From contig NZ_JANZNR010000001.1 of NCBI RefSeq assembly GCF_025153525.1, positions 186,001 to 250,000 on the forward strand: a DNA stretch of 64,000 nt, written 5' to 3'. Shown here piece by piece: positions 4,833 through 32,840 of this stretch. The notes under the pieces are model-generated. The model saw only the letters and a list, made by a program, of their open reading frames with translations. It did not search any database and was not told the origin of the DNA. Within the stretch, counting starts at the first letter, position 1. Each line of letters begins with the position of its first letter. The position numbers and the translations under genes are program-made. The stretch is from Psychroserpens sp. SPM9. GTDB taxonomy: Bacteria > Bacteroidota > Bacteroidia > Flavobacteriales > Flavobacteriaceae.

Positions 4833-4847
4833 GGTTCAAAATATGTC
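4833..4847 (-). promoter_or_regulatory. PUL motif copy upstream of the Calx-beta lipoprotein gene
   Basis: On the minus strand this reads GACATATTTTGAACC, the most divergent of five copies of the GACAATTAwkAAACC motif. Its left flank AAACGGTATCT is shared with the copy at 7599-7613. It lies 65 bp upstream of the lipoprotein start. No perfect TAnnTTTG box is present at the expected distance; GATATTTA at N27 matches four of six fixed bases. Confidence 0.5.
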
Positions 4848-4882
4848 AGATACCGTTTGTTTAATGTAAAAAATGCTTGATT

Positions 4883-7558
4883 TTAGTCTATTATAATCTT
4901 TTTGGTTACGTTTTTCCCTTCATTTCCAATTTGAACGACATAAATCCCAGAAGAAATATAGTGCATCTCAACTGTTTGTTGATTTAACGAAGGTTCTAAA
5001 GCAAATGATTGCATGAGTCTTCCTTGAATATCGTATAACCTGAGTATTGAATTATCAGACACATAACCATGAACCATAATTGATTTATTATTTGAAAATA
5101 TTAGGATATCACTTATTTCATTTTGGATCGTTGAAAGTGCATTATCACCAACTCGCAGGAAAAACCTACCTGTTCCGTTGAGATTTGTATTTGGTGTAAT
5201 GATGTAATCTGAATCGTTAAGCAAGGTAAACGAGTTTAGCTCAGTATCCTCTATATAAACCATAGTACTGTTTGGCAAATTTAGATTAGAAAGCGTAAAG
5301 GTAATTTGCTCACCTTGCCCAGCATTAACTCCCAAAGGTATTATAGTTTGAGTTATTTCATTTGGTCCTAATGTTTGTATCGCCAAAGGTGAATTGGAAC
5401 TATAATCTACCAATGTTGAGTATAGGGCAAAACCAGATACCGATTGTCCAAAATGAGTAGCATCATAACCTGCGTCTAATTCACTAGTTCCATTAGTATT
5501 GAAGTAAATATCCGTAGTATAAGAATTAGCATTACTTGTAAGTTTCAAAGTAAAATCACCAAGATGATTGCTTTGTTGATTTCTTCCCAATATAAAATCA
5601 TCTGAATCACCAATGGTACGCATATCTGTAGTAAAATCAACTGTGCCTCCGCCGTTTTTAGAAGCAACGAAAAACCCTTGACCTGGCGTTATTAATGTAT
5701 TCGGATTAGCATCTGAATATGCTTGATTCCAAATGGTCCACTTCGATCCATCACCAGTCGTATCATTATCATATCCATAAACTCCAGATGATGTAACATC
5801 AAACTCTGAGTTATTCGCAGCCAAAAAATCTGCTAAAGTAATGTAAGACGTATATGGGTTTCCGATTAGATTCCAATTACCAAAATTCCCAGTTTCTGAG
5901 GTTATACCCACACTAACATCGGTTGTTATTATTGAACCATGAAAATTTAAAGCAGAGGTTTCTGCCAAGTCACCATTAGTTCCCATACGGTAACCTACTC
6001 CAGGAATTAAAGGTGTGGTAGCGTCAAAATCCCAGTTTTCATAAACTCCAGGATTACCAGCGTTATTAAATGGGCCAAACAACACAGCATCACTATTGGT
6101 GTCTTCAACAAAGAAAGAGGCATTGTCTGTATAAAAATCATTAAAAGAAGCCATAGACACAGGTGAGGCAATAAGATCGTTACCAGCAGATGCTTCAACA
6201 TCGTTAACATAACGTCTAAATCTTATGTCGCCTGTCGAAGTCCCTTTGACAATTAAACTAGAAAACTGATTCGAATCACCACGTAAAACGAGACTATTAT
6301 TCACTCCAGAATCTGTTACCAAATCCCCTTCAATAGTTACAGAATTCCCTTTATTAACCAACAACTCTTTACCAGACAAAATTGTTAGGTTGTTGGCGGC
6401 GACATCATTATTCACAGTCACGACATGGCCAATAACGACATTGTCTCCAGCTAAAGGAATCACACCACCAACCCAAGTTGCTGTATCATTCCAGCTTCCA
6501 TCTTGCATCGATTGAATAGCGGCAGGAATCGCTGGATTTAGATCGTAATAATCAACAATTACAGATACATTATCAAAATCAAATGTGTCGCCTAAACTAG
6601 CCGAGGCTACATTAGTTTTTACGCGCAATGCCACTCTAATTTCATCAAAATCGCTACTTAGTGATCGGTTTATACTGTATGATGCCCAAGAATTAGTTAA
6701 ACTTTCATTGCCATTAAATTGATTAGTTTCTGAACCTGATAAAGAATGTGAAATTTGTACACCAACTGTAGCTGTAGTATTATTGGATTGTGCATCAAAA
6801 TTTACAGTTACTTGGTTAACTTGTTCTAATTCATTTGTATTGAATATAAAATAAGAATTTTGTAGGGTGTTATTTGTTGTTGCATTTTGGTCAAACGTCA
6901 ATCGACCTGCACTACCGCCATTATGACCCGTTGTTAAAGATGCTGAAACATCAGGCCCATTAGCCATCCATGGTGCTAGTTCACCTCCGTTATTTTCAAA
7001 ATCACCATTGGTTGCAATATCAACCGATAAAGTATTAACAATTACAAACTGGTCAATTTTAAGTGTTCCGGCAAGATCACCTGCAACATTTAGTTGAATT
7101 CTTAATCCGATTCTATCTAAAATCCCTGTATTATCTGAATTTGGTGGAATGGCAAAATCTAAAGTTTGAAAACCTGGACCATAAGGAATAGTAATATCAG
7201 AAGACTGCTCTGCATTCCCTGCATTCTGATCTCCTATATCATAATTTACAATTCTAAAAGTCTCGTGATTTCCACTTGTACCTGTCAAAAGATTTTCAAC
7301 AACCAGACGAACAATAGTATAATCGGATTCTACAAGATTTAATCCTTCAGGTGTTCTGATTTGCTGAAAACCGCCCGTGTAATCATTTGGTGAATCGGTT
7401 GCTTCCAACACGCCTCCGAATACATTCAAACTTGGTATTCCGCCTTGCGTAAACCCTTCAAAGTCACCATCACTATCAAAATCGTAATAATAACTTTGTG
7501 AAAACACTACAAAGGGTGAAATTAGCAAAAGGAATATTGTAATTTTTTTCATCATCAA
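4883..7558 (-). CDS. Large T9SS-sorted protein with CBM4/9-like and G8-like modules
   Basis: An 891-residue secreted protein starting MMMKK; the third Met at 7552 would serve equally well. After the signal peptide come two jelly-roll modules. One covers about residues 22-175. The second, about 178-340, begins ATNGDFENNGGELAPW, the typical opening of a CBM4/9/22-like carbohydrate-binding module. Next, SWNDTATWVGGVIPLAGDNV (about 350-380) matches the opening of G8-like beta-helical segments. A long beta-rich region follows, then a type A T9SS sorting domain (SILRLYDIQGR, SGIYVVQIGN, KKIIID). No glycoside hydrolase motif is evident. Its own promoter has the PUL motif exactly 27 bp upstream of a perfect TAnnTTTG. 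Probable surface glycan-binding protein; an undescribed enzymatic role cannot be excluded. Confidence 0.8.
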   Translation of the reverse strand: MMMKKITIFLLLISPFVVFSQSYYYDFDSDGDFEGFTQGGIPSLNVFGGVLEATDSPNDYTGGFQQIRTPEGLNLVESDYTIVRLVVENLLTGTSGNHETFRIVNYDIGDQNAGNAEQSSDITIPYGPGFQTLDFAIPPNSDNTGILDRIGLRIQLNVAGDLAGTLKIDQFVIVNTLSVDIATNGDFENNGGELAPWMANGPDVSASLTTGHNGGSAGRLTFDQNATTNNTLQNSYFIFNTNELEQVNQVTVNFDAQSNNTTATVGVQISHSLSGSETNQFNGNESLTNSWASYSINRSLSSDFDEIRVALRVKTNVASASLGDTFDFDNVSVIVDYYDLNPAIPAAIQSMQDGSWNDTATWVGGVIPLAGDNVVIGHVVTVNNDVAANNLTILSGKELLVNKGNSVTIEGDLVTDSGVNNSLVLRGDSNQFSSLIVKGTSTGDIRFRRYVNDVEASAGNDLIASPVSMASFNDFYTDNASFFVEDTNSDAVLFGPFNNAGNPGVYENWDFDATTPLIPGVGYRMGTNGDLAETSALNFHGSIITTDVSVGITSETGNFGNWNLIGNPYTSYITLADFLAANNSEFDVTSSGVYGYDNDTTGDGSKWTIWNQAYSDANPNTLITPGQGFFVASKNGGGTVDFTTDMRTIGDSDDFILGRNQQSNHLGDFTLKLTSNANSYTTDIYFNTNGTSELDAGYDATHFGQSVSGFALYSTLVDYSSNSPLAIQTLGPNEITQTIIPLGVNAGQGEQITFTLSNLNLPNSTMVYIEDTELNSFTLLNDSDYIITPNTNLNGTGRFFLRVGDNALSTIQNEISDILIFSNNKSIMVHGYVSDNSILRLYDIQGRLMQSFALEPSLNQQTVEMHYISSGIYVVQIGNEGKNVTKKIIID

Positions 7559-7570
7559 TTAATTAATTCA

Positions 7571-7613
7571 CCAAAACTAAAACAAGAATGTCCTTTTGGG
7601 GTTTATTAATTGT
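7571..7613 (-). promoter_or_regulatory. Promoter with PUL motif for the CBM/G8-like surface protein
   Basis: Minus strand: GACAATTAATAAACC (7613-7599), and a -7 element TAGTTTTG (7578-7571) that matches TAnnTTTG perfectly. The gap between GACAATTA and the -7 box is exactly 27 nt. No TTTG is found at the usual -33 position, which suggests activator-dependent transcription. The gene start is 12-18 nt downstream of the -7 box. Confidence 0.65.
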
Positions 7614-7656
7614 CAGATAACGTTTGAATAAAGTGAATAAAGCTATAGGGCTTGAC

Positions 7657-8556
7657 TTAGTCTAATTGCATTAAATTTTTCAGACCATTTTCATTGGCTT
7701 CTAAAATATGTTCTGGATCACCACCTTTTACATGTCCTAAAATCCCGAAAGGACCATTATAACCCAAATTCAATAATTGCTGAATCATGCTTTTTTCTAA
7801 ATCACCTTGTCCTATAGTGATGATTTTTGGACCTTCAGATTTCATACCATTGAGATTGACACACCATAAATAAGGAAATAACTTTTTGATATTTTCTGAA
7901 TAGTCTTCTAAGGCGTCATGTGCATGATGAAAATTTAAAACAACACCTAAATTTTTATTTGGAAGTGCTTTGATTATTTTTAATTGATTCTCTGGTTTTC
8001 CATACCAACCTCCATGGTTATACAACGCAATCTTACAACCTAGTTTTTTAGCTCGTTGCGATAAATATGTAATCATATCTTTTGCTTGACGTAGAGATTC
8101 TTCTTCTGATAAATCATCAAAATATTTAGGCTCAAATCCTACCCAAATCTGAGTTTGCAATCCTACGACTTTTAGGTTTTCAAAAACAGCTTCGCTTTCT
8201 GGTTTTAACTTACCTACTTTATCCTTCTTAAGGTTGATATACAACCAAACTGCTTTAACAGCAATGTTTTTTTCTTTTGCCAGTTCCCATTCCTGTTTCA
8301 TGGTCGGAATATGTTTGGGTCTATTTCCGTAGGCATATTGTTTATATCCTAAGCGTTCTAACATTTCCAATCGCTGTTCTGGTGTACGTTCTTTCACATC
8401 GAATCCAACGATGGACCAAGGAATGAGATTATCTTTACTGAATAAATCTGCTTTAGATTGATGTTGGTTAGTGCCAACGCTTTTGCATGAAACCAAAGAC
8501 AGCGCTATAAAAGCATAAACCAATAAAAACAAACGTGAAACCAGAACTTTGACCAT
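7657..8556 (-). CDS. Exported sugar isomerase/epimerase-like TIM-barrel lipoprotein
   Basis: A 299-residue protein with the fold signature of xylose-isomerase-like TIM barrels (AP endonuclease family 2). Strand-end motifs include AVKAVWLYIN, GCKIALYNHGGWYG, NLGVVLNFHHAHD and PFGILGHVKGGD, with His, Glu and Asp placed as metal ligands would be. The N-terminus is a lipoprotein signal ending LSLVSC, so the protein acts outside the cytoplasm, unlike classical sugar isomerases. I chose ATG at 8556 over an upstream TTG because it overlaps the preceding stop codon (TAATG), which implies translational coupling. It is the last gene of a four-gene operon with an epimerase-like protein, a phosphatase and a sulfatase. 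The substrate is unknown. Confidence 0.75.
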   Translation of the reverse strand: MVKVLVSRLFLLVYAFIALSLVSCKSVGTNQHQSKADLFSKDNLIPWSIVGFDVKERTPEQRLEMLERLGYKQYAYGNRPKHIPTMKQEWELAKEKNIAVKAVWLYINLKKDKVGKLKPESEAVFENLKVVGLQTQIWVGFEPKYFDDLSEEESLRQAKDMITYLSQRAKKLGCKIALYNHGGWYGKPENQLKIIKALPNKNLGVVLNFHHAHDALEDYSENIKKLFPYLWCVNLNGMKSEGPKIITIGQGDLEKSMIQQLLNLGYNGPFGILGHVKGGDPEHILEANENGLKNLMQLD

Positions 8557-9587
8557 TATAAAATTTCTATAGAAAATGAACAATTAAAGGTGTCATTTGG
8601 TGCTAATTTCATCACCCCATCTTTTTGCCTATAATCTTTGTTATGGTCTTTTCTGTCGGCAATGCCATACCAAGGTTCTATACACACAAATGGCGAACTG
8701 TCGTTTGGTGACCATATTCCCAAATACGGAAAACCCTTAAACTCAACACTTAAATACTTTTTTTGAGTTGGCTCGTGTACAAAGATTACTTTTGAAAACT
8801 TATTAGGATTGAAAGTCAAGGATCCTTTATCAAAAATAGTATCGGGTAATTTCATAATACCATCTTCTTCAAAAACCTCATAGGTATCGCCTTCATAAAG
8901 CCCTTTGACGTTGGAATGAAATTTTGGTGAAATCTTTTCATCAAATACCAATTGGTATTCGTTTCGTTTTTGCCCCTCTTCAAACGGACAATTAAATCCT
9001 GGATGCGCTCCAATGGTAAAGTACAAATCTTCAGATGTCGAGGGATTTTTCACTATATATTCTGTTTGAAGTGATTTACCTTCAAGTATATATTTTACTT
9101 GCAATACAAAATCAAACGGATAAATGGTCTTAGATTCATCGGTCGCCACTTGCTCAAAGGTGATGCTGGTTTCTGTTTTTTCAACAACCTTAAAATCATT
9201 ATCCCTTGCAAAACCATGCTGTTTCATTGGGTATGTTTTGTCCTTATAGGTATACTCATGGTCTTTTAATCTCCCAACTATAGGAAACAAAATAGGCGCA
9301 TGCCTTGGCCACACTTCAGGATCTGCCTGCCAAACATATTCTAAATCGTCTGTTTTAAAGCTTATCATTTCAGCACCTTTAGTTTTAAATGATGCAGAAG
9401 TTTCATTGTTTTTGAGTGTATGGATAGCCATGGTGTTTTCTAAAGTTAAATCGTTCTTTTCAGTTATTTTTACATTGACATCATTGATATCTTTTAACTG
9501 TTCCTTTTTATTATTACAACTTACTAGCAAGATAAGCATACAAAATATTTGAAAAGAACGTATGATTACTTTTTTCATTGTTATCAT
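8556..9587 (-). CDS. Aldose 1-epimerase family protein (LacX-like), exported lipoprotein
   Basis: Galactose-mutarotase-fold protein of 343 residues. Recognisable motifs are FPIVGRLKDHEY followed by KQHGFARDNDF, the substrate-side histidine in TIGAHPGFNCPF, and CIEPWYGIAD, which carries the catalytic-base-type glutamate of LacX-like members. The N-terminus is a lipoprotein leader (MLILLVSCNNKK). The start overlaps the stop of the upstream phosphatase gene (ATGA); an ATG 9 nt later (9578) is equally possible. In a PUL such a protein could interconvert anomers of released sugars, or bind modified sugars. Export to the periplasm is the unusual point, because most family members are cytoplasmic. 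Reaction and substrate are inferred from the family only. Confidence 0.8.
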   Translation of the reverse strand: MITMKKVIIRSFQIFCMLILLVSCNNKKEQLKDINDVNVKITEKNDLTLENTMAIHTLKNNETSASFKTKGAEMISFKTDDLEYVWQADPEVWPRHAPILFPIVGRLKDHEYTYKDKTYPMKQHGFARDNDFKVVEKTETSITFEQVATDESKTIYPFDFVLQVKYILEGKSLQTEYIVKNPSTSEDLYFTIGAHPGFNCPFEEGQKRNEYQLVFDEKISPKFHSNVKGLYEGDTYEVFEEDGIMKLPDTIFDKGSLTFNPNKFSKVIFVHEPTQKKYLSVEFKGFPYLGIWSPNDSSPFVCIEPWYGIADRKDHNKDYRQKDGVMKLAPNDTFNCSFSIEIL

Positions 9588-10840
9588 TTTTTTATTGTAA
9601 ATTCATCAAAAGTTTTTCCGGTGTACGAGTCAATTCCTTTAAACCTCAACACGTTACCATCAATTAAAATCAACGCAAAACTCGGAATGTGTTCAGCATA
9701 AGCAACAATAGAACCATCTATGCAGTTTTTAGGATCATTAGGATCTGCAGCCCACTTCTTATTGATTTTTCCACCTGCTCCAATGGTAACAGAAACAAAT
9801 CTGCTATCTAAATTTTCATATGCTGTTTCATTCACTCTCAACAAATCAACATCTCCATTTTCGTCATATGGCTTTAAGCGTTCGTAGGTATGTGCGTGTC
9901 CATTCAAGACTAAATCTACCTTGTTGTTGGCAAATATTTTATAGAGGTTTTCAACATGTTGGTAATCTTTTTTATAGGTACAACTTTTGCCATTATGGTG
10001 TAAATAAACCACTATCCAATCAAATTTGCTTTGGTTTTCTTTTAATGTTGCTGTTAACCAAGCGACTTGTTCTTCTACATTATAAAAATCACCATTACTA
10101 GAATCTAATCCAATGAACAATGCGTTAGAATAGTTAAAACTATAGTAATGCTCGTTATTAGGCAATGCCCATTCCTTTTCAAAATTCTTTTCAGGGTCCG
10201 AAAGCCAATCGTGGTTTCCTGCTACTGGGTAGAACGGAATATTTTTAAAAACCTCTTGAAAGGGTTTAAACAAATGGTTATCATAGTTTTTACTTTCACC
10301 TTTAGGATATACGATATCTCCCAATCCTAATCCGAAATCTGGCTTCACTGCTAATTCGGTAATTCTAGTTGCTGGCTCTTTGGCAAAACTACCTTGTTCT
10401 TTTGCTCCAATATCGCCTAATGCATAAAAAGAAAATGCAGTCTTCTTATTATCTGGTGCAGTTGTGAAATGATAATCTTCTCCACTTGCCAATAAATGAC
10501 CGTTTGAGTAAATATTGTAATTGTACGTTGTATAAGGTTTTAAGTTAGTTAGTATAGATTCATTAAACTTATTACCTTCATGGCTGACCAAATTCCCTTT
10601 TACAACAACTTTTTCAGTCGTTCCCTTTTCATTAAACTCAACAAAACAATTTTCAGAAATCGAATCGGTTTTCCAGGTAATGGTTGTAGACGTAGGTCTC
10701 ACCATTTGCAAATAAGGCTCACGAATTAACATTGGCTTTTCACCAAAGGCTTCAATTTTTACAGTTTCGCCAAATTTTTTTACTGATTTACATCCAATTA
10801 ATACAGTAACAACGACTAAAAGCAAAATATTTTTTTTCAT
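9584..10840 (-). CDS. Purple-acid-phosphatase-like metallophosphoesterase lipoprotein
   Basis: A 418-residue calcineurin-like metallophosphoesterase with an N-terminal fibronectin-type domain of purple acid phosphatases (about residues 40-125, REPYLQMVRPTSTTITWKTD). The metal-binding motifs are present in order: LGDIGAK, LGLGDIVYPKG, VAGNHDWLS, VYLHHNGKS and NGHAHTYER. A lipoprotein signal (LLLVVVTVLIGC) places it in the cell envelope. I chose ATG at 10840, one base after the sulfatase stop, over an upstream TTG. It sits between a sulfatase and sugar-processing genes, so it may remove phosphate from a glycan or a sugar. Activity on a sulfate or phosphate ester of the PUL substrate is inference. 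Confidence 0.85.
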   Translation of the reverse strand: MKKNILLLVVVTVLIGCKSVKKFGETVKIEAFGEKPMLIREPYLQMVRPTSTTITWKTDSISENCFVEFNEKGTTEKVVVKGNLVSHEGNKFNESILTNLKPYTTYNYNIYSNGHLLASGEDYHFTTAPDNKKTAFSFYALGDIGAKEQGSFAKEPATRITELAVKPDFGLGLGDIVYPKGESKNYDNHLFKPFQEVFKNIPFYPVAGNHDWLSDPEKNFEKEWALPNNEHYYSFNYSNALFIGLDSSNGDFYNVEEQVAWLTATLKENQSKFDWIVVYLHHNGKSCTYKKDYQHVENLYKIFANNKVDLVLNGHAHTYERLKPYDENGDVDLLRVNETAYENLDSRFVSVTIGAGGKINKKWAADPNDPKNCIDGSIVAYAEHIPSFALILIDGNVLRFKGIDSYTGKTFDEFTIKK

Positions 10841-10841
10841 T

Positions 10842-12323
10842 TTAATTTTTGTTTTCTTGCCCTTCAATATTCTCTTTATAAATTGAGTGTAGTATATTCT
10901 TTAACTCTAAAACCACTGTTTTATATTCTGAATCATTCACTACATTTTCATTTTCTTCTTTATCAATTCTATGGTCATAAAGCATTGACGTAATTAGTGA
11001 ATTATCTTCCGCTTTTATGAATTCGGTGTAACTAAAATCGTTTGTTTTTAGTGTAAAACCATTTCCTTTTTTTATAAAAACATGGTTCTTTCCTTCAGAT
11101 TTTGGATTTTCAAGCACAGAAACCATACTTTTTCCGTCTAATTGTGACGCTGGAATTTCCAAACTACATAATTCTGCTAATGTTGGATAAACATCAACCA
11201 AGGTCACTAAAGCATTGGTTGTTCCTTTTACTTCGGAAAGCGGATTATATATAATCATTGGTACTTGCGTCGATGTATTGTAACTTGTGAATTTTGCCCA
11301 TTGGGTATGTTCTTGCAAATTATAACCATGGTCAGAAACAAAAACCACAATGGTATTTTTATCTAATCCGGCCGCTTTTAATGCGTTTAAAATCTTTCCT
11401 ATCAGTGCGTCGGTATAACTAACGGTTGCATAATAGCCGTGAATTAAATCAATAGCTATAGAATCATTCACTTGACCTTGCTTTGGTATGTTAGAATACA
11501 TTCGCATCTCTGGCCAATTGCTAATGCTTATTTTTGGTGCATTCTTCGGAATATAATTGTAGTTTTCGGGTTGCTTGATTTGGCTTCTATCATATAAATC
11601 CCAATATTGTTTTGGCGCATTAAATGGTAAGTGAGGCGCAATAAAACCTGCAGTTAAAAAGAAAGGTTTGTCTGAATCTTTTAGCTTATTAATATCTCTT
11701 ATCACCTTTTCGGTCATTAAACCATCAATGTAAATGGAATCGTTCACATCGGCACTTTCATAAGCAGGACCAGTATTTGTCGCTTTATATTCGGCAATAT
11801 TTTCTGGTAGCTGATAATCTTTCCAAAGGGATTGCCAATAATCTGTTGGTGCTAAGCCTTGATTATTATTATCAAAGGCATAAGGTCTGTAAATGGCATC
11901 CCAATCGTTTTCTCGGTCATCTAAATGATGATAAATTTTACCGTTGGAAATCGTCGTATATCCGTTTTGTTTAAATAACTGCGGAAGCGTAACAGCATCA
12001 GGTGTTTCTTTTTCTACAAAAGTGTTATAGTTCAAAAATCGGTTTTTTGTGGGCAACATTCCTGTAAGCATACTAGCACGTGAAGCGCCACAAACAGGGA
12101 CATTACAATAGGCATTGTTAAACTGCACACCCTTTTCTGCCAAGGCATCAATATTGGGTGAAATGATTTGCGATTGACCATAGCTTGACAATTCTGGACG
12201 TAAATCATCCATATACAACAATAAAATATTGGGTTTTGAAGCCTTATCAACATTTGACGGTTCCTCTTTACAAGAAACAAATAATACTAATAGCCCTAAA
12301 ATGATTAATCGCTTAAATGACAT
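10842..12323 (-). CDS. Sulfatase, iduronate-2-sulfatase-like, Cys-type (lipoprotein)
   Basis: Type I formylglycine sulfatase of 493 residues. The metal site opens LLLYMDDLRPELSSYG, the modification motif is CGASR with the Cys at residue 78 followed by ASMLTG, and later motifs include GKIYHH, PFFLTAGFIAPHLPFNAP and VVFVSDHGYNLQEHTQWAK. These are characteristic of iduronate-2-sulfatase-like members of SulfAtlas family S1 (probably S1_7). The lipoprotein leader ends FVSC and is followed by KEE, a possible surface-sorting signal. It is the first gene of the operon running to 7657, and its promoter carries the PUL motif. The Cys must be converted to formylglycine, presumably by the FGE at 36870. 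The exact sulfate ester is unknown. Confidence 0.92.
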   Translation of the reverse strand: MSFKRLIILGLLVLFVSCKEEPSNVDKASKPNILLLYMDDLRPELSSYGQSQIISPNIDALAEKGVQFNNAYCNVPVCGASRASMLTGMLPTKNRFLNYNTFVEKETPDAVTLPQLFKQNGYTTISNGKIYHHLDDRENDWDAIYRPYAFDNNNQGLAPTDYWQSLWKDYQLPENIAEYKATNTGPAYESADVNDSIYIDGLMTEKVIRDINKLKDSDKPFFLTAGFIAPHLPFNAPKQYWDLYDRSQIKQPENYNYIPKNAPKISISNWPEMRMYSNIPKQGQVNDSIAIDLIHGYYATVSYTDALIGKILNALKAAGLDKNTIVVFVSDHGYNLQEHTQWAKFTSYNTSTQVPMIIYNPLSEVKGTTNALVTLVDVYPTLAELCSLEIPASQLDGKSMVSVLENPKSEGKNHVFIKKGNGFTLKTNDFSYTEFIKAEDNSLITSMLYDHRIDKEENENVVNDSEYKTVVLELKNILHSIYKENIEGQENKN

Positions 12324-12347: not shown

Positions 12348-12390
12348 CAAAATTACATCTAACTTCAAAAGTTTTGGTTTCATAATTGTC
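12348..12390 (-). promoter_or_regulatory. Promoter with PUL motif for the sulfatase-phosphatase operon
   Basis: Minus strand: GACAATTATGAAACC (12390-12376) and a perfect -7 element TAATTTTG (12355-12348). The gap from GACAATTA to the -7 box is 27 nt, identical to the promoter at 7571-7613. No -33 TTTG is at the normal distance. The sulfatase ATG is 24 nt downstream. Confidence 0.65.
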
Positions 12391-12408
12391 AATACAATTC
12401 CAACAACG

Positions 12409-24002: not shown

Positions 24003-24009
24003 TTTTATA

Positions 24010-25644
24010 CTATCTATCAGTTAATACATCTTGAACAGAGGTTTCATCGTCTTCTCTATCAATAATAGAACCAAAATCTTTATCTGTAATTTTTCGGAAA
24101 TCTACCAACGATTTATCGTTTTCATATTTCTTCATTAGGTCTTTTAATTCAACTTTTAAATCTGCTACTACTTTAGTATACTGCGGATCGCCAATAATAT
24201 TATTTATTTGGTTTGGATCATTTTCTAAATCATACAATTCCCAAACATCAATATTATAATAGAAATGTGCCAGCGTATACTTTTGAGTTCTGATCCCATA
24301 ATGAGGCTGTACATGATGCCAATAAGGAAACTCGTAATAGTGATAGTACATTCCTTTTTGCCAATTTTTCGGTTGTTTCCCTTCTAAATTAGATTTAAAA
24401 CTAACACCTTGCATTTTTTGTTCGGTTTCAATATTTGCTAAATCCAATAATGTTGGTGCAAAATCGATATTAGTAATAATATCTTCATTAACTGTACCAG
24501 CTTTAACTTTCGCTGGATACCTTACCATAAATGGCATGCGCAAAGATTCTTCATAGATAAAACGCTTATCAAAGAATCCGTGGTCTCCTAGATAAAATCC
24601 TTGATCTGAAGTTAATACAATGATTGTATTTTCAGTTAAATTATTATCATCTAAATATTTTAATACGCGGCCAATGTTATCGTCAACAGACTTGACACAA
24701 GCCAAATAATCTTTAATATAGGTTTGATAACGCCATTTTCTACCTTCTTCGGCAGTCATCCCTTCTGGCTGGACAATTTCTCCTGGTTTTGCACCATAGA
24801 AAGCCCACTTGATTTTTTCTTTTCCTTTTAAATTGGCTGGTTCTTCAAATTTCATATCTCTTCTTGAGAAATATTCCATAGTCATTTCTGTATCTCCAGC
24901 TGTTAACTCACGTCCTTTATAATCATCGTTAAACGTTGCTGGGTAAGGCATTTCAATATCTTCCCAAAGTTTTTCATATTTGGTATCTGGTTGCCATGGT
25001 CTATGAGGTGCTTTGTACTGTAAGACCATCATAAAAGGAGCGTCTTGCTTTCTTCCGGTTTCTAACCAATTCATAGCAAAATCGGTACTCAAATTCGTTG
25101 AGTAGCCTTCTACTTTTACATCTGTGCCATTTTCGTTATAAACTGGATTCCAATAATGTCCTTGTTGTCCTGCCGAATTATGATATTTAAACATATCAAA
25201 ACCTTTCGGCTCTGTGCCTAGATGCCATTTTCCGAAAAGAGAAGTTTGATAGCCATTTTTTTGAAATTCTTGAGGGAATGTCCATTGTGTTTCATCAAAC
25301 TTACCTCCACTTTCATTTTTGTAATAGCCATTTAGGTTACTATAATTACCTGTTAAAATGGCGGCACGTGAAGGTCCGCAGATAGCATTTGTACATAACA
25401 CATCTTGGAACAGCATCCCTTCCTTGGCAATCCTGTCAATATTTGGTGTAGGCGCTATATCACTATATATCCCACCATAAGCACTAATGGCTTGTGTTGT
25501 TAAATCATCTGCCATGATGTAGATAATGTTAGGTTGCTGTGTCTCTTCTGCTTCAATATAATTTAAAGCTTGATCTTTATTCGTTTGCTTGCAAGCAACC
25601 ATAAGCAGCATGCATAGAACACCTAATTTTAATGTCTTTAACAT
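24010..25644 (-). CDS. Sulfatase, GlcNAc-6-sulfatase-like, Cys-type (lipoprotein)
   Basis: Formylglycine sulfatase of 544 residues: IIYIMADDLTTQAISAYGG, CGPSR with the Cys at residue 89 followed by AAILTGNYSNLNGYY, FGKWHLGTEPKGFD, VLQYKAPHRPWQP, and IIVLTSDQGFYLGDHGFFDK. The last block and the NYSNLNG motif resemble N-acetylglucosamine-6-sulfatase and mucin-desulfating sulfatase relatives (tentatively S1_11 or S1_8). The lipoprotein leader ends LMVAC. One base separates it from the GH3 gene and 7 bp from the next sulfatase, so it is inside the susC operon. The substrate is a guess from relatives. Confidence 0.92.
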   Translation of the reverse strand: MLKTLKLGVLCMLLMVACKQTNKDQALNYIEAEETQQPNIIYIMADDLTTQAISAYGGIYSDIAPTPNIDRIAKEGMLFQDVLCTNAICGPSRAAILTGNYSNLNGYYKNESGGKFDETQWTFPQEFQKNGYQTSLFGKWHLGTEPKGFDMFKYHNSAGQQGHYWNPVYNENGTDVKVEGYSTNLSTDFAMNWLETGRKQDAPFMMVLQYKAPHRPWQPDTKYEKLWEDIEMPYPATFNDDYKGRELTAGDTEMTMEYFSRRDMKFEEPANLKGKEKIKWAFYGAKPGEIVQPEGMTAEEGRKWRYQTYIKDYLACVKSVDDNIGRVLKYLDDNNLTENTIIVLTSDQGFYLGDHGFFDKRFIYEESLRMPFMVRYPAKVKAGTVNEDIITNIDFAPTLLDLANIETEQKMQGVSFKSNLEGKQPKNWQKGMYYHYYEFPYWHHVQPHYGIRTQKYTLAHFYYNIDVWELYDLENDPNQINNIIGDPQYTKVVADLKVELKDLMKKYENDKSLVDFRKITDKDFGSIIDREDDETSVQDVLTDR

Positions 25645-25645
25645 A

Positions 25646-28027
25646 TTAGTTTACTTTTTCAATGGTGAAACCATTCTTCACAGAAATGGTTGTTGTCTTT
25701 AAATCTTTATCAGCAGAGGAATTCCCTGTCATTATAGTAAAATCTCCAGGTTCAACTACAAAGTTGAAATCTTTATCGTACATGGCTAAACTTTCTGCAG
25801 TAATAGGAATACTTACTGTTTTAGATTCACCCGCTTTCACAAATACACGTTTGTAACCTTTTAGTTCCTTAACTGGTCTTGTGTATGAACTTCTGTTATC
25901 TCTCACATACATTTGTACAACTTCTTCGCCATCAACATTACTTGTGTTATTGACAGTAACTTCAACAGTGATGGTATCATCAATTCCTGCAAAATCAGCT
26001 TTTGAAACTGTAGGTTCAGAAAATTCGAATTTTGAAAAGCTTAAACCAAATCCAAATGGGTGTAATGGTACTTTCTTTTCGGTATTATACTTATGAATGT
26101 AAGCCGTTGGCTTATGATTATATATCATTTGTAACTGACCAACACTTCTTGGTACAGTTAATGGTAACTTTCCACTTGGATTAACTTCTCCCGTTAAGAT
26201 TTCTGCTACTGCTTGTCCGCCAAATGCTCCAGGTTCCCATGCATTTACTACAGCTTTTGCACGTTGCTCTAACCAAGGCTCTGCAATAGGGCTTCCACTT
26301 ACGTAAACTACAACAACAGGTTTATTTAGTTCAAATAGTTTATTTGCTAATTTTATTTGATTGCCAGATAATGCTAAAGTGGCGCGGTCAATGTTTTCAC
26401 CTGTGGTTTTGTTTTTCCAATCGTGTCTGTATGAGTTTTCACCCAAAACCAATATGATGATATCCGATTGTGCTGCCCTTTGCTTTGCAGTGGCAATATT
26501 CTCATCTGTAATCCATTTTGAACGTTGACCACAATCGTAATAATCTGTTGCGTAGTTATACTTTTCAGCCAAATTATCAATACCTTCTTTTATGGTAACA
26601 TAGTTATCTTCTGGTTGTGGTGATGTCCAATCACCAAGCGTTGTCATATTATCTGCATTAGGACCAGTGATGAAAATTTTCTTTCCTGATACATTTTTTA
26701 GTGGAAGAAAACCATTGTTTTTTTGAAGCACAACACCTTTTCTAGCCTGTTCTAAAGCTGTCTGTTTGTGTTCTTCGGTAAAAATTTTGCTTTTTATACT
26801 CTCTAAATCGATAAATGGGTTTTCAAAAAGTCCTAATCTAAATTTCGCTTCCAGAATTTTATAAACAGCATCATTTACACGCTCTTCACTTAGCTTACCT
26901 TCATTAACTAACTCAACTACATAATCTTGAAAATAGGGTCCGTGCATATTCATATCCATACCCGCTCCAACCGAAAACTGAACAGATTCTTTAAAGTCTC
27001 TAGCAACATGATGCCATTTTGCGATACGTGAAATATCATTCCAGTCGCTCACATAAAATCCTTTAAAGCCCCAACGGTCACGCATTAAGTCGGTCATCAT
27101 GAACTCATCCATATGTCCTGGCATCCCATTTACTTCGTTGTGTGCAGCCATAATAGAAAACACGTTAGCTTCTTGAACCGCTCTACGATAAGGTGGTAAG
27201 AACATTTCAAAAAGTGTTCGTTTTGACACATCGGTTGGTGAAGCATTGAGTCCATTGACAGACTGGCTACCCGCAATTAGATGTTTTGCACAAGCAATAA
27301 CTTTATCACTTCCAGAAAAGTCATCACCTTGCAATCCTTTGATCGCCGCAACACCCATATTCCCAACAAGGAATGGATCTTCACCATAGGTTTCACCTGT
27401 TCTTCCCCAACGTGGATCTCTTAATACATCAATATTTGGTGTAAAGGTCCATTGGGTTCCTGTAGCTCGCATTTCTTTAGCTGTTTGCTGACTTGCTTTT
27501 ACCATTAAAGAGTCATCAAATGTAGCTGCTTGTGTAATTGGCGTTGGGTAAACGGTTGCGCCACCTTGATAATAGGCATTACCATGGATAGCATCTATAC
27601 CAATTAACAATGGAATTTTTAAAGGTGATTCTTGAGCTAATTCTTGAAGTTCATTGGCTTCTTCAGCAGTTAATACGTGAAGAAAAGAACCTATTTTACC
27701 TTCTCTTGTAAGTCTGGCAATATCAGTAGTTTTAAACCCAGGGTAAAAGCCTTGTGCATCATTTTTATCTAATTCTTCTTCAGATAAATCTCCTAAAGCC
27801 TTGCGCATATGTTCCATACCAACATACTGACTCATTTGCGCTGCTTTATCTTCAAGCGTCATACGAGACATCAAGTCTTCAATTCTATCTTCAACTGAAG
27901 CTGATGCTTCCAGGTAAAGTGGATTTTGATCGTTTCTAGAATTTTGTGTTTTCTTTTCATTACACGAAATTATTAATGTAGTTACAACAATAATAATAGA
28001 CATGTATTTAAATAGGTTTTTGATCAT
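25646..28027 (-). CDS. GH3 family beta-glycosidase lipoprotein
   Basis: A 793-residue GH3 enzyme. Domains: (alpha/beta)8 barrel about residues 45-370, alpha/beta sandwich about 400-620, and a C-terminal Fn3-like domain about 690-765 (VDGEEVVQMYVRDNRSSYTRP). The nucleophile is Asp328 in GFYVSDWNDI. KHLIAGSQSVNG and TPNIDVLRDPRWGRTGETYGEDP are standard GH3 substrate-binding blocks. The lipoprotein leader ends LIISC. Family members remove terminal beta-glucose, beta-xylose or GlcNAc from the non-reducing end; in the company of GH10, a beta-xylosidase role is plausible. It lies 11 bp from susD in the core operon. Confidence 0.92.
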   Translation of the reverse strand: MIKNLFKYMSIIIVVTTLIISCNEKKTQNSRNDQNPLYLEASASVEDRIEDLMSRMTLEDKAAQMSQYVGMEHMRKALGDLSEEELDKNDAQGFYPGFKTTDIARLTREGKIGSFLHVLTAEEANELQELAQESPLKIPLLIGIDAIHGNAYYQGGATVYPTPITQAATFDDSLMVKASQQTAKEMRATGTQWTFTPNIDVLRDPRWGRTGETYGEDPFLVGNMGVAAIKGLQGDDFSGSDKVIACAKHLIAGSQSVNGLNASPTDVSKRTLFEMFLPPYRRAVQEANVFSIMAAHNEVNGMPGHMDEFMMTDLMRDRWGFKGFYVSDWNDISRIAKWHHVARDFKESVQFSVGAGMDMNMHGPYFQDYVVELVNEGKLSEERVNDAVYKILEAKFRLGLFENPFIDLESIKSKIFTEEHKQTALEQARKGVVLQKNNGFLPLKNVSGKKIFITGPNADNMTTLGDWTSPQPEDNYVTIKEGIDNLAEKYNYATDYYDCGQRSKWITDENIATAKQRAAQSDIIILVLGENSYRHDWKNKTTGENIDRATLALSGNQIKLANKLFELNKPVVVVYVSGSPIAEPWLEQRAKAVVNAWEPGAFGGQAVAEILTGEVNPSGKLPLTVPRSVGQLQMIYNHKPTAYIHKYNTEKKVPLHPFGFGLSFSKFEFSEPTVSKADFAGIDDTITVEVTVNNTSNVDGEEVVQMYVRDNRSSYTRPVKELKGYKRVFVKAGESKTVSIPITAESLAMYDKDFNFVVEPGDFTIMTGNSSADKDLKTTTISVKNGFTIEKVN

Positions 28028-28038
28028 TATTTAAAATA

Positions 28039-29565
28039 TTAGTATCCAGGGTTTTGATCTGCCTGAGAGATTTCGGTATTGTTTGATAGTTCAGTTGAGG
28101 GAATAGGCAATAACATGTTTTTTACAGAAACAGGGTATATATAATCTCGATTTCCAAGGTTAGAGAAGTTATTATGTGTCTCAATGACCTCTTCCAAGAA
28201 ATATTCGTAACCACGTCTTCTCGTATCAAACCATTCATGATTTTCGCCTAATAATTCATATTGGCGTTCTCTCATAATTCTATTTCTAAATTCATCTTGT
28301 GCCATACCACTCCAATCAGCTGGTTCTGCTGCTTGAGTACCATCTGCTTGCGTTCTTGCTCTAGTTAAAACTTCGTTAACATATTGATAAGCATTTGAAG
28401 GACCATTAAGTTCATTCTCTATTTCTGCTAACATTAAGAGTAAGTCAGCATACCTCATCTTTAACATATTTCGGCTTGTAGTAGAGCCATTGAAGCTAGG
28501 GTCTAAATATTTTTTTAAACCTGTATAGCCATTATTTCCATTAATTTGAATTGGGTAAAGATTTTGAGTTGAGCCGTTTACTTTTGTATAAGAATCATAA
28601 ATAAACGTCGCCTCTATTCTTGGGTCTCCAGGATACTGATTAGCATGCTGGTCATACACTTCCTTATTAGGTCTAACACGACCAAATGTAGGATAGTCAA
28701 AAAAATCTTGAAGTGTATAAGTTCTAATGATATCTGAATTTCTTTCGGCACCGTTAGCACCATACTGAATTTCAAAAACTGCTTCTGACGTGTTTTCATT
28801 GCTTGGGTCATAAAGACTTTCAAAAACCGGCACCAAACTATATTGGCCATACACCTGAATTGCTTCATCGTAAGCAGCTTGCCACATTGCCATATCATTA
28901 TTCTCACCGGCTAGAGTCATATACACTTTAGCCAAAAACATGTTTGCTGCGGTCTTAACAGGTCTGTCAGACAAATATTCTCCCGGACTAGGAAGCATTA
29001 GTTTTGCCTTTTCAAAATCTGATATCACAAGGCTATAAACATCTTCTTTAGAGCTTCTGCCTGTATTCAAACTATCGATGTTTGCAGGTAATGTTTTAAT
29101 AGGTACACCACCAAAATAACGTACCAAATCAAAATAAGTGGCAGCTCTTATAAAGTAAGCTTGACCCAATGTTATATCTCTGTTTGGAAGTTCAGAGTCT
29201 TCCATATTAAAAATTATTGTATTTGCGACATTGATTGTAGCATACATTTGGGGCCACATACGTGTAAGCCAAGTATTATTTGGCAATGTATTTAAGCTTG
29301 TTGCATCTTCACTAGCACCTTGGTTAGAAAAAAACTTACCTGAAACAGGTGCAATAAAAGTATGGATTGAAGACCCGTGATAACCTGGTCCTGAATAACT
29401 TTTATACAAACCATTTATGGCAGTTTCTACACCTTGTTCGGTCGAAAAGACCTGTTCTTCTTCAAAGAAAGTTTCATAATCTTCTTCTAAATAATCGTCA
29501 CACCCTACATATGTTAGGCAAAATGTAACTATTCCGATAATTGCTATATATTTTTTCATTTTCAT
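28039..29565 (-). CDS. susD: SusD-like glycan-binding outer-membrane lipoprotein
   Basis: A 508-residue SusD/RagB homologue. The lipoprotein leader ends YVGC and is followed by the acidic run DDYLEEDYE, typical for surface SusD proteins. The TPR-like helical core includes QAYFIRAATYFDLVRYFGGVP, RYADLLLMLAEIENEL and FRNRIMRERQYELLGENHEWFDTRRRGYE, all hallmark SusD blocks, and the C-terminus ends in NPGY. It caps the SusC transporter and captures oligosaccharide at the surface. It is 4 bp downstream of susC and certainly cotranscribed. Specificity cannot be read from sequence. Confidence 0.95.
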   Translation of the reverse strand: MKMKKYIAIIGIVTFCLTYVGCDDYLEEDYETFFEEEQVFSTEQGVETAINGLYKSYSGPGYHGSSIHTFIAPVSGKFFSNQGASEDATSLNTLPNNTWLTRMWPQMYATINVANTIIFNMEDSELPNRDITLGQAYFIRAATYFDLVRYFGGVPIKTLPANIDSLNTGRSSKEDVYSLVISDFEKAKLMLPSPGEYLSDRPVKTAANMFLAKVYMTLAGENNDMAMWQAAYDEAIQVYGQYSLVPVFESLYDPSNENTSEAVFEIQYGANGAERNSDIIRTYTLQDFFDYPTFGRVRPNKEVYDQHANQYPGDPRIEATFIYDSYTKVNGSTQNLYPIQINGNNGYTGLKKYLDPSFNGSTTSRNMLKMRYADLLLMLAEIENELNGPSNAYQYVNEVLTRARTQADGTQAAEPADWSGMAQDEFRNRIMRERQYELLGENHEWFDTRRRGYEYFLEEVIETHNNFSNLGNRDYIYPVSVKNMLLPIPSTELSNNTEISQADQNPGY

Positions 29566-29569
29566 TTTT

Positions 29570-32500
29570 TTAGAATGTTAAATTAAGTGCTAATGTGAAG
29601 GTTCGCTGATTAGGAAAAGAATTCCAATCAACTCCTACTCTTCCTGGATCGAAAGTGAAACTAGCACCTTCAGGATCAAAGCCACTATAATTTGTAAATA
29701 GCAGTAAATTTTGACCTGAAATAGAAATGTATGCGTTGTCAAGAACTGAGGTGTCATTAAAAGGAATTCTGTATCCTAATGTGACATTAGACAGTCTTAA
29801 AAAGCTTCCGTCCTCAACAATTCGGTCTGTAAAACCAGTTTCATCAGCTAAGTCATAACCTACTCTTGGGTACGTACCATTTGGATTATCTGGTGTCCAA
29901 GCATTAAAATACGCTTCGCTTCTTACATTAGTAGAACCATTATCTGCGTAAGCTTCTCGTAATAAATTACCATTAGCGATGTCATTTCCATATACACCGT
30001 TAAATAAAGCACTCAATGACCAATTTTTATATTCGAAACTCGTTCCAAAGCCATAATTAAAATCAGGGTTTGGGTTACCTATGATTGTTAAATCATTATT
30101 ATTTATGATACCATCTCCATTTTGATCGACGAGATAAACATCCCCTAATTGCGCTGGTGTTCCATTAAAACTTGCTGCATTATCAACATCGTCTTGATTG
30201 CTCACGATTCCATTTGTTGCATAACCGTAAAACAAACCAGGTTCTTCTCCTTCGATAAAAATGTTCGCTTCTGTTTTAAAGAAATTTCCACCTGAAATCT
30301 GGCTTCCTAGATATGCGCTGTAAGTTTCTGTTCCAAATTGATTTGGAGAAAAGCCTATATCACCAACTTCATTTCTATTGAATGCAATATTTCCATACAC
30401 ATTCCATTTAAAGTTGTCGTTACTCACGATATCAGCGTTAATTGAGATTTCAATACCTTTATTGATAAGCTCTCCTCTATTAAAAAACGTAGTTTCAAAG
30501 CCATTAGATGGAGCAATAGGCGCATTTAACAATAAGTCATAAATGTTCTTATAATACACATCTACTGATCCTGTTACTCTATCATTAGCCATCCCAAAAT
30601 CTAGACCAGCATTATATTGACTCGTGGTTTCCCATTTTAATTTAGGGTTGCTAAGGTTTTGCGGCACTAAAGATGTCACAGGGTTACCCTCGGCATCAGA
30701 ATAAGGCGTTTCGGTTAGATTAAAACGTGTAATAGTACTATAAGGATCTATGGCCTGATTACCTGTTAACCCCCAACCTATTCTTAGTTTGGCTTGTGAT
30801 ATAAATTTAGAATCTTTAAGAAAGTTCTCTTCTTTCATTTTCCAAGCGAACGCAAATGCTGGGAAATAGCCCCAACGGTTATCGCCTCTAAATTTTGAAC
30901 TACCGTCTGCTCTAAATGTAGCCGTAAATAAATACTTATTAAACATGGTATAGTTAAGTCGTCCTAGATAAGACAAGAGCGACTCTTCTTCAGTATAATA
31001 AAATGTAGGCTGTTGGTTTTGACCTGTAGTAATCCCATCTGCCCTTAAATCTTGTAAAGGAAAGTTTGTAGCAGAAGCCGTTGTAAATTTAGTTTGTCTT
31101 TGATCAACGATAAACCCAACAGTTCCATTAATTCTATGGTTACGATTAAATCTATGTTTAAACATTAATGTATTATCTATGTTGTATCTAAATCTCTCAA
31201 GATTACTTAAACCAGCTTCACCATTACTAAGTGCACCTCGTCTTAAAGCTGTTCCATACCACACCTGTCTTTCTTTAACTCTATAATCTGTACCAATAGC
31301 AACTCTATATGTAAAAGCATTGGAAATTTTGTAGTCTAATTTTAGTGACCCTAACAATCTCGTTTCTTTAGATTCATCATCATAATCTGATATCCATGCT
31401 CTAGGACCGTCTAAGCTGATATCAAATTCGTCTCCTTCAAAATTATCTTCTTGTCCTATGATAGGTGCTCCTGATACGACTTGTCTAATTAAGCTATTAC
31501 TTGTACCACCAAGATTTTCTGTCCCTTTAGAAGCAAAGTTTTGAGTAAATTGTGCCGCTATTTTAGTGGTCAATTCTAGTTTATCTGTTAAATTATTGGT
31601 GAGTTTTGCATTAAAATCAGTGCTCTTCGCAATAGCTCTTGGTACAATGCCTTCATTTTGAAGATATCCAGCAGAAATATAATAGTTACCATTATCACCA
31701 CCTCCAGAAACGGCAAGTCTATACTTGTTTGTTATAGCTGTTCTGTAAGTATCATCAGTCCAATCTACACCTTCAATTCTTTCAATGGTATTAGCATTAT
31801 CAATCATAAATTGTTCATCAACTTCAAATAGAGCGATACTTCCGTCAGGATAAGTATAGTATCTAGGGTTGAAGCCTTGATTTGCTCTTATGTCATTTTG
31901 ATACTGCACGTATTGTCCCGTGTTTAACACATCAATATTATTAGTAATATGACCTATTCTTGTAGATGTATTAAATGTAAACTTAGCTTCTCCTGGCACG
32001 CCTTTTTTGGTTGTTATGATGATAACACCATTGGCACCACGAGAACCGTAAATTGCTGTTGCAGAAGCATCTTTAAGAACTTCAATGTTTTCAATATCCC
32101 TTGGATTTAATCCTGTAATACCACCTTGTGGAGACAAGTAACTATTGCCACTCGACAGTGGATCTAAGGTGTCTTCCGTAGCAGAATCGACAATAATTCC
32201 ATCAATAACATAAAGTGGTTGTGTATTCCCTGTAAGACTATTTAGACCACGAATTCTAATGCTATTTGCTGCTCCAGGTTCAAAAGAACTTTGCACCAAA
32301 ACACCTGCAGCTCTACCTTGTAAAAGTTCTTCTACATTATTGGATTGTGAGACTAAATCTTCTTTTTTATTTACTGAAGAGATGGCACCTGTTAGGTCTT
32401 TTTTATTAACCTCTCCATAACCAATAATCACAACCTCATCTAAAGTTTGTTTATCTTCCTCTAAAACAACCTTTATGTTTGTTTGAGAGTTGATAATGAC

Positions 32501-32734
32501 TTCTTTAGACTTAAATCCTAAATAACTTATTACTAAGGTTGCTGGTGTCTCATCTAAAGTAATGGTAAACTTACCATCAATATTTGTTATCTCTCCTTTT
32601 GTTGTCCCTTTAACTATAATTGAAGCTCCTGGTAGTGGGAAATTTGATTCGTCTGTTACAATTCCAGTTACTTGTAGTTGAGCAAAAGTAATTAGTGGAA
32701 GTAAGAAAAGGATTAGACCAAAGTATTTTCTCAT
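29570..32734 (-). CDS. susC: SusC-like TonB-dependent oligosaccharide transporter
   Basis: A 1054-residue TonB-dependent receptor of the SusC/RagA type. After the signal peptide (LPLITFAQ) there is a carboxypeptidase-regulatory-like domain (about 22-95, GIVTDESNFPLPGASIIVKG). A TonB-box-like LDEVVIIGYG follows at about 100. The plug domain (about 115-225) includes RIRGLNSL, PLYVIDGI, the SusC signature IENIEVLKDASATAIYGSRG and ANGVIIITTKKG. A long outer-membrane barrel ends NQRTFTLALNLTF. It imports the sulfated oligosaccharides that SusD binds. It heads the core PUL operon and is preceded by a 158-bp region with paired direct repeats and the PUL motif. Confidence 0.96.
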   Translation of the reverse strand: MRKYFGLILFLLPLITFAQLQVTGIVTDESNFPLPGASIIVKGTTKGEITNIDGKFTITLDETPATLVISYLGFKSKEVIINSQTNIKVVLEEDKQTLDEVVIIGYGEVNKKDLTGAISSVNKKEDLVSQSNNVEELLQGRAAGVLVQSSFEPGAANSIRIRGLNSLTGNTQPLYVIDGIIVDSATEDTLDPLSSGNSYLSPQGGITGLNPRDIENIEVLKDASATAIYGSRGANGVIIITTKKGVPGEAKFTFNTSTRIGHITNNIDVLNTGQYVQYQNDIRANQGFNPRYYTYPDGSIALFEVDEQFMIDNANTIERIEGVDWTDDTYRTAITNKYRLAVSGGGDNGNYYISAGYLQNEGIVPRAIAKSTDFNAKLTNNLTDKLELTTKIAAQFTQNFASKGTENLGGTSNSLIRQVVSGAPIIGQEDNFEGDEFDISLDGPRAWISDYDDESKETRLLGSLKLDYKISNAFTYRVAIGTDYRVKERQVWYGTALRRGALSNGEAGLSNLERFRYNIDNTLMFKHRFNRNHRINGTVGFIVDQRQTKFTTASATNFPLQDLRADGITTGQNQQPTFYYTEEESLLSYLGRLNYTMFNKYLFTATFRADGSSKFRGDNRWGYFPAFAFAWKMKEENFLKDSKFISQAKLRIGWGLTGNQAIDPYSTITRFNLTETPYSDAEGNPVTSLVPQNLSNPKLKWETTSQYNAGLDFGMANDRVTGSVDVYYKNIYDLLLNAPIAPSNGFETTFFNRGELINKGIEISINADIVSNDNFKWNVYGNIAFNRNEVGDIGFSPNQFGTETYSAYLGSQISGGNFFKTEANIFIEGEEPGLFYGYATNGIVSNQDDVDNAASFNGTPAQLGDVYLVDQNGDGIINNNDLTIIGNPNPDFNYGFGTSFEYKNWSLSALFNGVYGNDIANGNLLREAYADNGSTNVRSEAYFNAWTPDNPNGTYPRVGYDLADETGFTDRIVEDGSFLRLSNVTLGYRIPFNDTSVLDNAYISISGQNLLLFTNYSGFDPEGASFTFDPGRVGVDWNSFPNQRTFTLALNLTF

Positions 32735-32792
32735 AATTGATTAAATTAGTTTTGGCTAAACTAACCCAAAGCTTTTAGTTAAGGGTTTAAAA

Positions 32793-32840
32793 AAATATCA
32801 CAAAAGGTCTATTAATTGTCAAATATCACAAAAAGCCTAT
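32793..32840 (-). promoter_or_regulatory. susC upstream region: two 20-bp direct repeats plus PUL motif
   Basis: On the minus strand, ATAGGCTTTTTGTGATATTT (32840-32821) and ATAGACCTTTTGTGATATTT (32812-32793) are direct repeats with 17 of 20 bases identical, 28 bp start to start. The motif GACAATTAATAGACC (32820-32806) begins right after the first repeat and runs into the second. A near-match -7 element TAGTTTAG lies at 32763-32756. The layout suits a dimeric AraC-type activator such as the neighbouring HTCS; binding itself is inferred. Confidence 0.6.

Follow-up and report, generated by a model that had tools for sequence, protein, structure and literature searches.

The 64,000-nucleotide stretch of Psychroserpens sp. 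SPM9 DNA analysed here (contig NZ_JANZNR010000001.1, positions 186,001 to 250,000; hereafter the window) contains a polysaccharide utilization locus (PUL), as identified with Pfam in a scan of 28 of the window's 45 listed open reading frames (ORFs). Our subject is a short motif, repeated upstream of five transcription units of this locus. To judge from the sequence comparisons below, it is very probably the element that is repeated in the operator at which the locus's own hybrid two-component system (HTCS) acts as an activator. On the minus strand the locus runs in the order HTCS, susC, susD, a glycoside hydrolase (GH) gene of family 3, four sulfatases, GH10 and a further sulfatase. After this susC unit comes a divergent pair, formed by a plus-strand gene for a CEMIP-type beta-helix protein and a minus-strand operon of sulfatase, phosphatase, epimerase and isomerase genes, and beyond the pair lie the genes for a secreted protein with a type IX secretion system (T9SS) tail and for a Calx-beta protein. 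The gene for the sulfatase-maturing enzyme FGE is divergent from that of the HTCS, and from 38.5 kb the window holds mutS, an rRNA methylase gene and other genes outside the PUL type. The proposed binding protein and its five proposed target units are as follows.

32893..36747, minus strand: HTCS with Reg_prop/Y_Y_Y sensor, HisKA, HATPase, receiver and AraC-type helix-turn-helix (HTH) domains by Pfam; the proposed binding protein
15997..32734, minus strand: unit 1, susC, susD, GH3, four sulfatases, GH10 and sulfatase; probably co-transcribed, to judge from their spacing
7657..12323, minus strand: unit 2, sulfatase, purple-acid-phosphatase-like, aldose epimerase and TIM-barrel isomerase-like genes; a putative operon, on the grounds of gene overlaps
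12492..15932, plus strand: unit 3, CEMIP-type beta-helix protein with a T9SS tail (the G8/beta-helix gene, or G8 gene)
4883..7555, minus strand: unit 4, secreted protein with a T9SS tail, Pfam recognising the tail only (the CBM/G8-like gene, CBM standing for carbohydrate-binding module)
3049..4767, minus strand: unit 5, Calx-beta protein (the Calx gene)

An earlier note on this DNA reported five 15-mers fitting GACAwwTwnnrnACC and proposed them as the operator of the HTCS, defining a regulon across the locus. All five are present, four at the positions given for them and the one before the CBM/G8-like gene at 7600-7614, one base away from the reported 7599-7613. Each lies between listed ORFs, is oriented towards the next gene and stands 44-71 bp from its ATG, the start of the G8 gene being taken as ATG 12492 instead of the listed TTG. 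The pattern matches exactly five times on the two strands of the window, against a mean expectation of 0.17, and none of 100 shuffles gave five matches. Genome-wide (3.8 Mb) it has 15 matches against 16 for its reversed form, which is the background level; taken alone, the 15-mer therefore gives no evidence of an operator. It does not discriminate, and we rejected it as a genome-wide search query. This background level, together with the fact that the 15-mer was written after the five sites had been seen, speaks for an explanation of the motif as chance, or as an artefact of pattern-hunting in an AT-rich genome. Each of the ten matches elsewhere in the genome is centred within a mechanically called ORF (at least 70 amino acids), and the window's five stand upstream of genes.

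Upstream of susC in relatives of this locus, a longer block is conserved, TTTGACAAT....A.ACC TTTTGT GATG.TTTTT.A.ACC. Because this conserved block contains two boxes, we describe the operator as a pair of boxes of which the 15-mer is one: it is a tandem direct repeat of two ~15-bp boxes (consensus GACAATTATTAAACC) in the same orientation with a 21-bp period. The earlier note had therefore located a real site and taken a half-site for the complete operator. Nor are its five 15-mers equivalent to one another: two of them, those of susC and of the G8 gene, are box 1, and those of the other three promoters are box 2. A model with a second box downstream of every 15-mer was rejected, the partner lying upstream at the CBM, Calx and sulfatase sites. 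The operators and -7 elements of the window are:

32785..32820, minus strand: susC operator; box 1 32820-32806 (the 15-mer of the earlier note), spacer TTTTGT, box 2 32799-32785
32756..32763, minus strand: susC -7 element TAGTTTAG, 57 bp from the box 1 start
7600..7635, minus strand: CBM/G8-like gene operator; box 1 7635-7621 CACTTTATTCAAACG (missed by the earlier note), box 2 7614-7600 (15-mer)
7572..7579, minus strand: CBM/G8-like gene -7 element TAGTTTTG, 56 bp from the box 1 start
4833..4868, minus strand: Calx-beta gene operator; box 1 4868-4854 TACATTAAACAAACG, box 2 4847-4833 (15-mer)
4812-4805, minus strand: Calx-beta gene weak -7 element GATATTTA
12376..12411, minus strand: sulfatase operon operator; degenerate box 1 12411-12397 GTCCGTTGTTGGAAT, strong box 2 12390-12376 (15-mer)
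12355-12348, minus strand: sulfatase operon -7 element TAATTTTG, 35 bp from the box 2 start
12409..12444, plus strand: G8/beta-helix gene operator; box 1 12409-12423 (15-mer), weaker box 2 12430-12444 GTCTACCATGCAACC
12465-12472, plus strand: G8/beta-helix gene -7 element TACATTTG

All five proposed transcription units thus carry a site. Both boxes are present at susC, CBM and Calx; box 2 is weak at the G8 gene and box 1 degenerate at the sulfatase operon, and these last two promoters suggest that one strong box, whether box 1 or box 2, can be paired with a weak one.

The 21-bp period was measured with a scan that has no spacing preference, using a single-box matrix made from 13 susC sites. 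Around 49 intergenic boxes other than susC sites (5 of them in the window), partners scoring above 5 bits number 13 at +21, 11 at -21 and 2 at -22; the scan covered 172 offsets up to 100 bp, and none of the others has more than one. For the remaining analyses we collected 46 tandem operators from the loci of 15 relatives (intergenic, no more than 260 bp from an ORF, score above 16); the spacing penalties used in this collection favoured 21 bp, and the spacing scan used none. Two operators with 22-bp spacing were excluded, leaving 44 for the -7 element count and the matrices, and five more below 24 bits, leaving 39 for a profile that we call R1.

The operators stand in a fixed register to the promoter. 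The accessible parts of two studies (PMC9723704, PMC7366714) give TAnnTTTG as the consensus of the sigma-A -7 element in the Bacteroidota, Flavobacterium among them. Of the 44 relatives' operators, 27 have a TAnnTT[TA]G starting 56 or 57 bp from the box 1 start, against a background of 0.0017 per position upstream of ORFs. In the window the element is at +56 at the CBM, sulfatase and G8 promoters and at +57 at susC; at these four of the five promoters it lies 20-21 bp downstream of box 2, whose start is 35-36 bp upstream of it. The distance to the start codon varies among the five promoters, while the arrangement of two boxes and -7 element is constant. Such a fixed distance would also be expected if the motif were a core promoter or a general upstream element of the family, read by sigma-A or by an extracytoplasmic function (ECF) sigma factor. 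We regard this as extremely unlikely: an ordinary TAnnTT[TA]G follows at four of the five promoters, whereas in an ECF promoter the boxes themselves would be the -35 and -10 elements with no sigma-A -7 element, and all ten other matches to the 15-mer in the genome lie in ORFs. The susC promoters are in one respect distinct, their -7 element reading TA.TTTAGC in 11 of 15 cases (32755-32765 in the window), unlike the TAnnTTTG of three other window promoters.

Profile R1 was built from sequence only, from the 39 operators of 14 relatives, with the window excluded. Scanned against the own 3.8-Mb genome (150 of 7034 first-look candidates scored), it places the susC site first (expectation value, E, 2.8e-6), the CBM site second (4.2e-4) and the Calx site third (0.011). 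The next match has an E of 0.037 and none outside the locus is lower, a specificity that again argues against a core promoter element. Among the 42 matches outside the window, nine were checked for context: seven are centred inside an ORF, one of them narrowly so, and two are intergenic. Equally good matches at unrelated genes, the first of the outcomes that the earlier note had held to be damaging, were not found in this genome-wide check. Within the window the five sites take ranks 1-5, with G8 fourth and sulfatase fifth; R1 aligns only one box at these two. A matrix of 29 operators of other genomes, none of them from susC, likewise ranks the five sites 1-5 at 17.6-31.4 bits (G8 again fourth at 19.9, sulfatase again fifth at 17.6), the top score of 40 shuffles being 17.2. 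That a profile free of the window recovers the five sites as its five best window matches, and that all seven held-out loci described below carry the operator, makes chance an exceedingly improbable explanation of the motif as a whole, even though in the genome-wide scan the G8 and sulfatase sites score no better than chance. For the three full sites (susC, CBM, Calx), which are firm in that scan, we regard it as already refuted. The assignment of the G8 and sulfatase sites is a prediction from window rank, position and promoter register and geometry.

The operator recurs with the HTCS. Orthologues of the HTCS, at 49-66% identity, were found in 15 other genomes among the 397 searched (own included); a sixteenth genome, G346, whose best match has 31% identity, was excluded. 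A PUL of similar order adjoins the HTCS in 14 of the 15, and in 13 of these 14 relatives the two-box site stands upstream of susC, with SusC identity down to 38-76%. Thirteen of the 15 aligned susC sites formed the seed set, those of the window and of G462 being excluded. Every one of the 15 HTCS genomes has an R1 match no more than ~360 bp away from the 3' end of the HTCS gene; R1 draws on 14 of these genomes, the exception being G462. A lack of conservation in related genomes, the other outcome that would have told against the operator according to the earlier note, was accordingly not found in the relatives' loci. In seven held-out HTCS loci (Winogradskyella, two Tamlana, two Flavobacterium metagenome-assembled genomes (MAGs), a Flavobacteriia MAG and a Flavicella MAG), a site lies just downstream of the HTCS gene in all seven, with E from 1.9e-8 to 8.4e-5, the two Tamlana sites being nearly identical; six of the seven genomes were scanned whole and gave best E values of 5.3e-7 to 1.3e-5. 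The PUL has orthologues in flavobacterial genera such as Kordia and Algibacter. The site also accompanies individual target genes: the calx orthologues of G275, G151, G259, G234, G273 and G286 have tandem sites upstream, and the G8 gene of G345 (77% identical) has an operator in the same register, allowing a one-base alignment shift.

Where the orthologous HTCS is missing, R1 falls to chance level. None of 15 genomes without an orthologue (defined as no match at E 1e-180, two candidates being scored per genome) has a match below E 0.015, the best being 0.0152 with six matches up to 0.05, a range that overlaps the weaker matches of HTCS genomes; a core promoter element of the family would hardly be absent from these genomes. 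There is no R1 match up to E 0.5 in 13 loci drawn from 64 with more distant HTCSs, and no site upstream of susC in six loci whose susC is related but whose compared stretches hold no orthologous HTCS. These six (G070, G076, G067, G065, G071 and G046, among which G067 has an HTCS at 26% identity) had been picked by SusC similarity; they gave no footprint, and this way of choosing relatives was rejected, while picking by HTCS worked. In G212 the HTCS is on contig C7 (L110) and the PUL on contig C2 (L242-L244), and both have sites, those at the PUL being five matches with E from 2.2e-4 to 0.04, none in the training set.

These comparisons bear on a further explanation, that some other, unlinked regulator co-inherited with the PUL binds the site and that the HTCS acts elsewhere. 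Our search for regulators covered Reg_prop proteins, of which the own genome has five ORFs; besides the window's, one of the remaining four is an HTCS by Pfam, a second HTCS on contig C22 (G000:C22:66611-70708, L273) that could in principle be such a regulator. Its recognition helices differ from those of the window HTCS, however, and the site occurs beside the HTCS gene in G212 even with the PUL on another contig. The six related-susC loci without an orthologous HTCS lack the site, and a direct repeat two turns apart is the predicted target of HTCS domains in the available part of PMC3878776. An unlinked regulator is hence improbable, and the PUL's own HTCS is the preferred candidate. The earlier proposal of an HTCS operator and of a regulon across the locus, which is a prediction, is supported by the footprinting, by co-occurrence with the HTCS orthologue rather than with susC, and by the genome-wide specificity.

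Both recognition helices of the AraC-type domain of the HTCS, whose positions we take from knowledge of the family, are nearly invariant in 20 orthologues, the sensor regions of which have 42-69% identity to that of the window. The protein contains THEIKTP and LTDLIMPEMDG, presumably its phospho-accepting motifs. Its receiver has NHIP in place of the S/CHIP motif to be expected from Bacteroides HTCSs, as far as these are covered in the accessible text of PMC11253607. The same source, in that text, reports that receiver-HTH proteins of Bacteroides HTCSs were tested on susCD promoters, and that substitutions relieving the receiver-HTH contact give binding without phosphorylation (PMC11253607). 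An activated Bacteroides HTCS has been shown to bind DNA both at the PUL whose expression it raises and at targets that are repressed (PMC3404733, in the part available); the main text of this HTCS ChIP-seq study, so far as accessible, does not contain the word 'motif', and the accessible part of PMC11501099 holds nothing on HTCS motifs.

On the features that can be tested, the predicted operator is of the known HTCS direct-repeat kind, to which the promoter register is now added. The assignment is made because it shares the testable features of B. thetaiotaomicron HTCS operators as given in the available text of PMC3878776: a two-site direct repeat of ~21 bp, upstream of PUL operons beside an HTCS, with regulons comprising several units of one locus. 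Here too, paired boxes ~21 bp apart lie upstream of PUL operons accompanied by an HTCS with an AraC-type HTH, are conserved with the orthologous HTCS and are at chance level without it. Ravcheev et al. (2013) gave predicted motifs for 16 of 36 B. thetaiotaomicron HTCSs, all direct repeats averaging 21 bp, according to the accessible part of that work (PMC3878776), which makes the earlier note's statement that HTCS operators are described for very few PULs too strong. What differs from B. thetaiotaomicron is that the PUL is a sulfatase-rich flavobacterial one and that the -7 distance and HTCS co-occurrence were measured; the likeness drawn here is one of architecture. In the literature that we searched, mainly open-access, we found no reported HTCS operator from a flavobacterium.

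Operators of the SusR type in Bacteroides are also direct repeats upstream of PUL genes, with boxes 67 or 77 bp apart as stated in the available text of PMC3878776, in contrast to the 21 bp found here; no partner above 5 bits occurs at offset 67 or 77 on either side of the 49 boxes. Vibrio XylRA, which serves a marine beta-1,3-xylan locus, similarly has direct repeats upstream of several units, but it is a XylR-like regulator with a LacI-type ligand-binding domain, and the accessible part of its description mentions no kinase (PMC12125979).

Computation yielded the two-box structure, the 21-bp period, the -7 distance, the conservation of the operator, its co-occurrence with the HTCS and, for the three full sites, its specificity across the genome. 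Binding by the HTCS, the dimer geometry, activation as against repression and the ligand are inferred, as follows. E. coli AraC and XylR bind head-to-tail half-sites ~21 bp apart, the proximal one abutting the -35 region. The sites described here resemble these in the ~21-bp head-to-tail period and in a proximal half-site next to the polymerase site, and differ in that the E. coli proteins are one-component sugar-binding regulators acting at sigma-70 promoters. By analogy with its family, the HTCS would phosphorylate its own receiver when the periplasmic sensor meets its oligosaccharide and so free the C-terminal AraC-type domain. Two such domains would then bind head to tail, one per ~15-bp box, on the same face of the helix and two turns (21 bp) apart. 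Because the proximal box begins 35-36 bp upstream of the sigma-A -7 element, it would abut or cover the -33 region, from where the bound HTCS could recruit RNA polymerase. Activation is the likely sense of regulation. It is a tentative idea, whose chances we put somewhat short of even, that HTCS activation in the Flavobacteriaceae relies on one set promoter layout of two head-to-tail boxes two turns apart, the proximal one 35-36 bp from the -7 element and the HTCS replacing the -33 element.

Several observations weigh against control of all five units by the HTCS through this operator, or against parts of it. As to the promoter register, 17 of the 44 relatives' operators have no TAnnTT[TA]G at 56-57, and the Calx promoter has the weaker -7 element GATATTTA at +56 in place of a full TAnnTTTG. 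As to the sites themselves, box 1 of the sulfatase operon is barely recognisable, the susC operator of G462, the fourteenth relative, is degenerate (E 0.0068, still a 21-bp direct repeat), and in the profile scan of the window neither the HTCS gene nor the divergent FGE gene has a site. As to specificity, the G8 (E 0.48) and sulfatase (E 4.6) sites are at chance level genome-wide by R1, the sulfatase site is nearly tied with the sixth window match at 24705 (10.4 bits each), the E of 0.011 at Calx improves little on the 0.0152 reached in genomes that lack the HTCS, and a match of E 0.0074 in loci without the HTCS lies inside a sulfatase coding region. The 44-operator matrix scores G8 at 16.4 and sulfatase at 12.9 bits, below the top of 40 shuffles (21.0). 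In a matrix from 15 operators before ORFs longer than 3 kb (13 of susC, one of a G8 gene and one of an HTCS gene), the CBM site scores 7.4 bits, G8 and sulfatase fall outside the top seven, and the 18.1 bits of Calx lie below the top of 40 shuffles (21.5); this matrix, 13 of whose 15 members are susC sites, misses three of the five sites and was rejected. Finally, activation is not certain, because one Bacteroides HTCS bound repressed as well as activated targets, according to the accessible part of PMC3404733.

If the assignment is correct, every proposed unit of this sulfatase-rich polysaccharide locus, which is found in many genera of a single family, is linked to one sensor, and both an exact target and a promoter register are predicted for testing by shift assay. 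The profile detects sites where sensor and PUL are unlinked, as in G212, a situation that would escape position-based PUL annotation. Should the geometry prove general for HTCSs, their operators and regulons, including those of PULs unlinked to a sensor, would become readable from sequence alone across the Bacteroidota.

Some smaller features of these loci deserve mention. The divergent G8 and sulfatase operators (12376-12444) overlap by three bases, which would put two dimers of the regulator next to each other, back to back. Around box 1 of the susC promoter (32785-32840) the sequence TTTTGTGATATTT occurs twice without mismatch, 28 bp apart; the copy further upstream is not obvious in the aligned relatives. 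In G457 the HTCS gene has a tandem site of its own 126 bp upstream, at G457:C4:46168-46204, which suggests autoregulation of the HTCS gene in that genome. The operator beside the HTCS on contig C7 of G212 precedes a transporter-like gene and then a gene for an 812-amino-acid protein that looks like a glycoside phosphorylase. Lastly, among the matches listed for SusC in 22 genomes of the same genus none exceeds 39% identity, while other genera reach 76-77%, and for this reason we propose that the PUL (3049-36795 in the window) may have been acquired by transfer.

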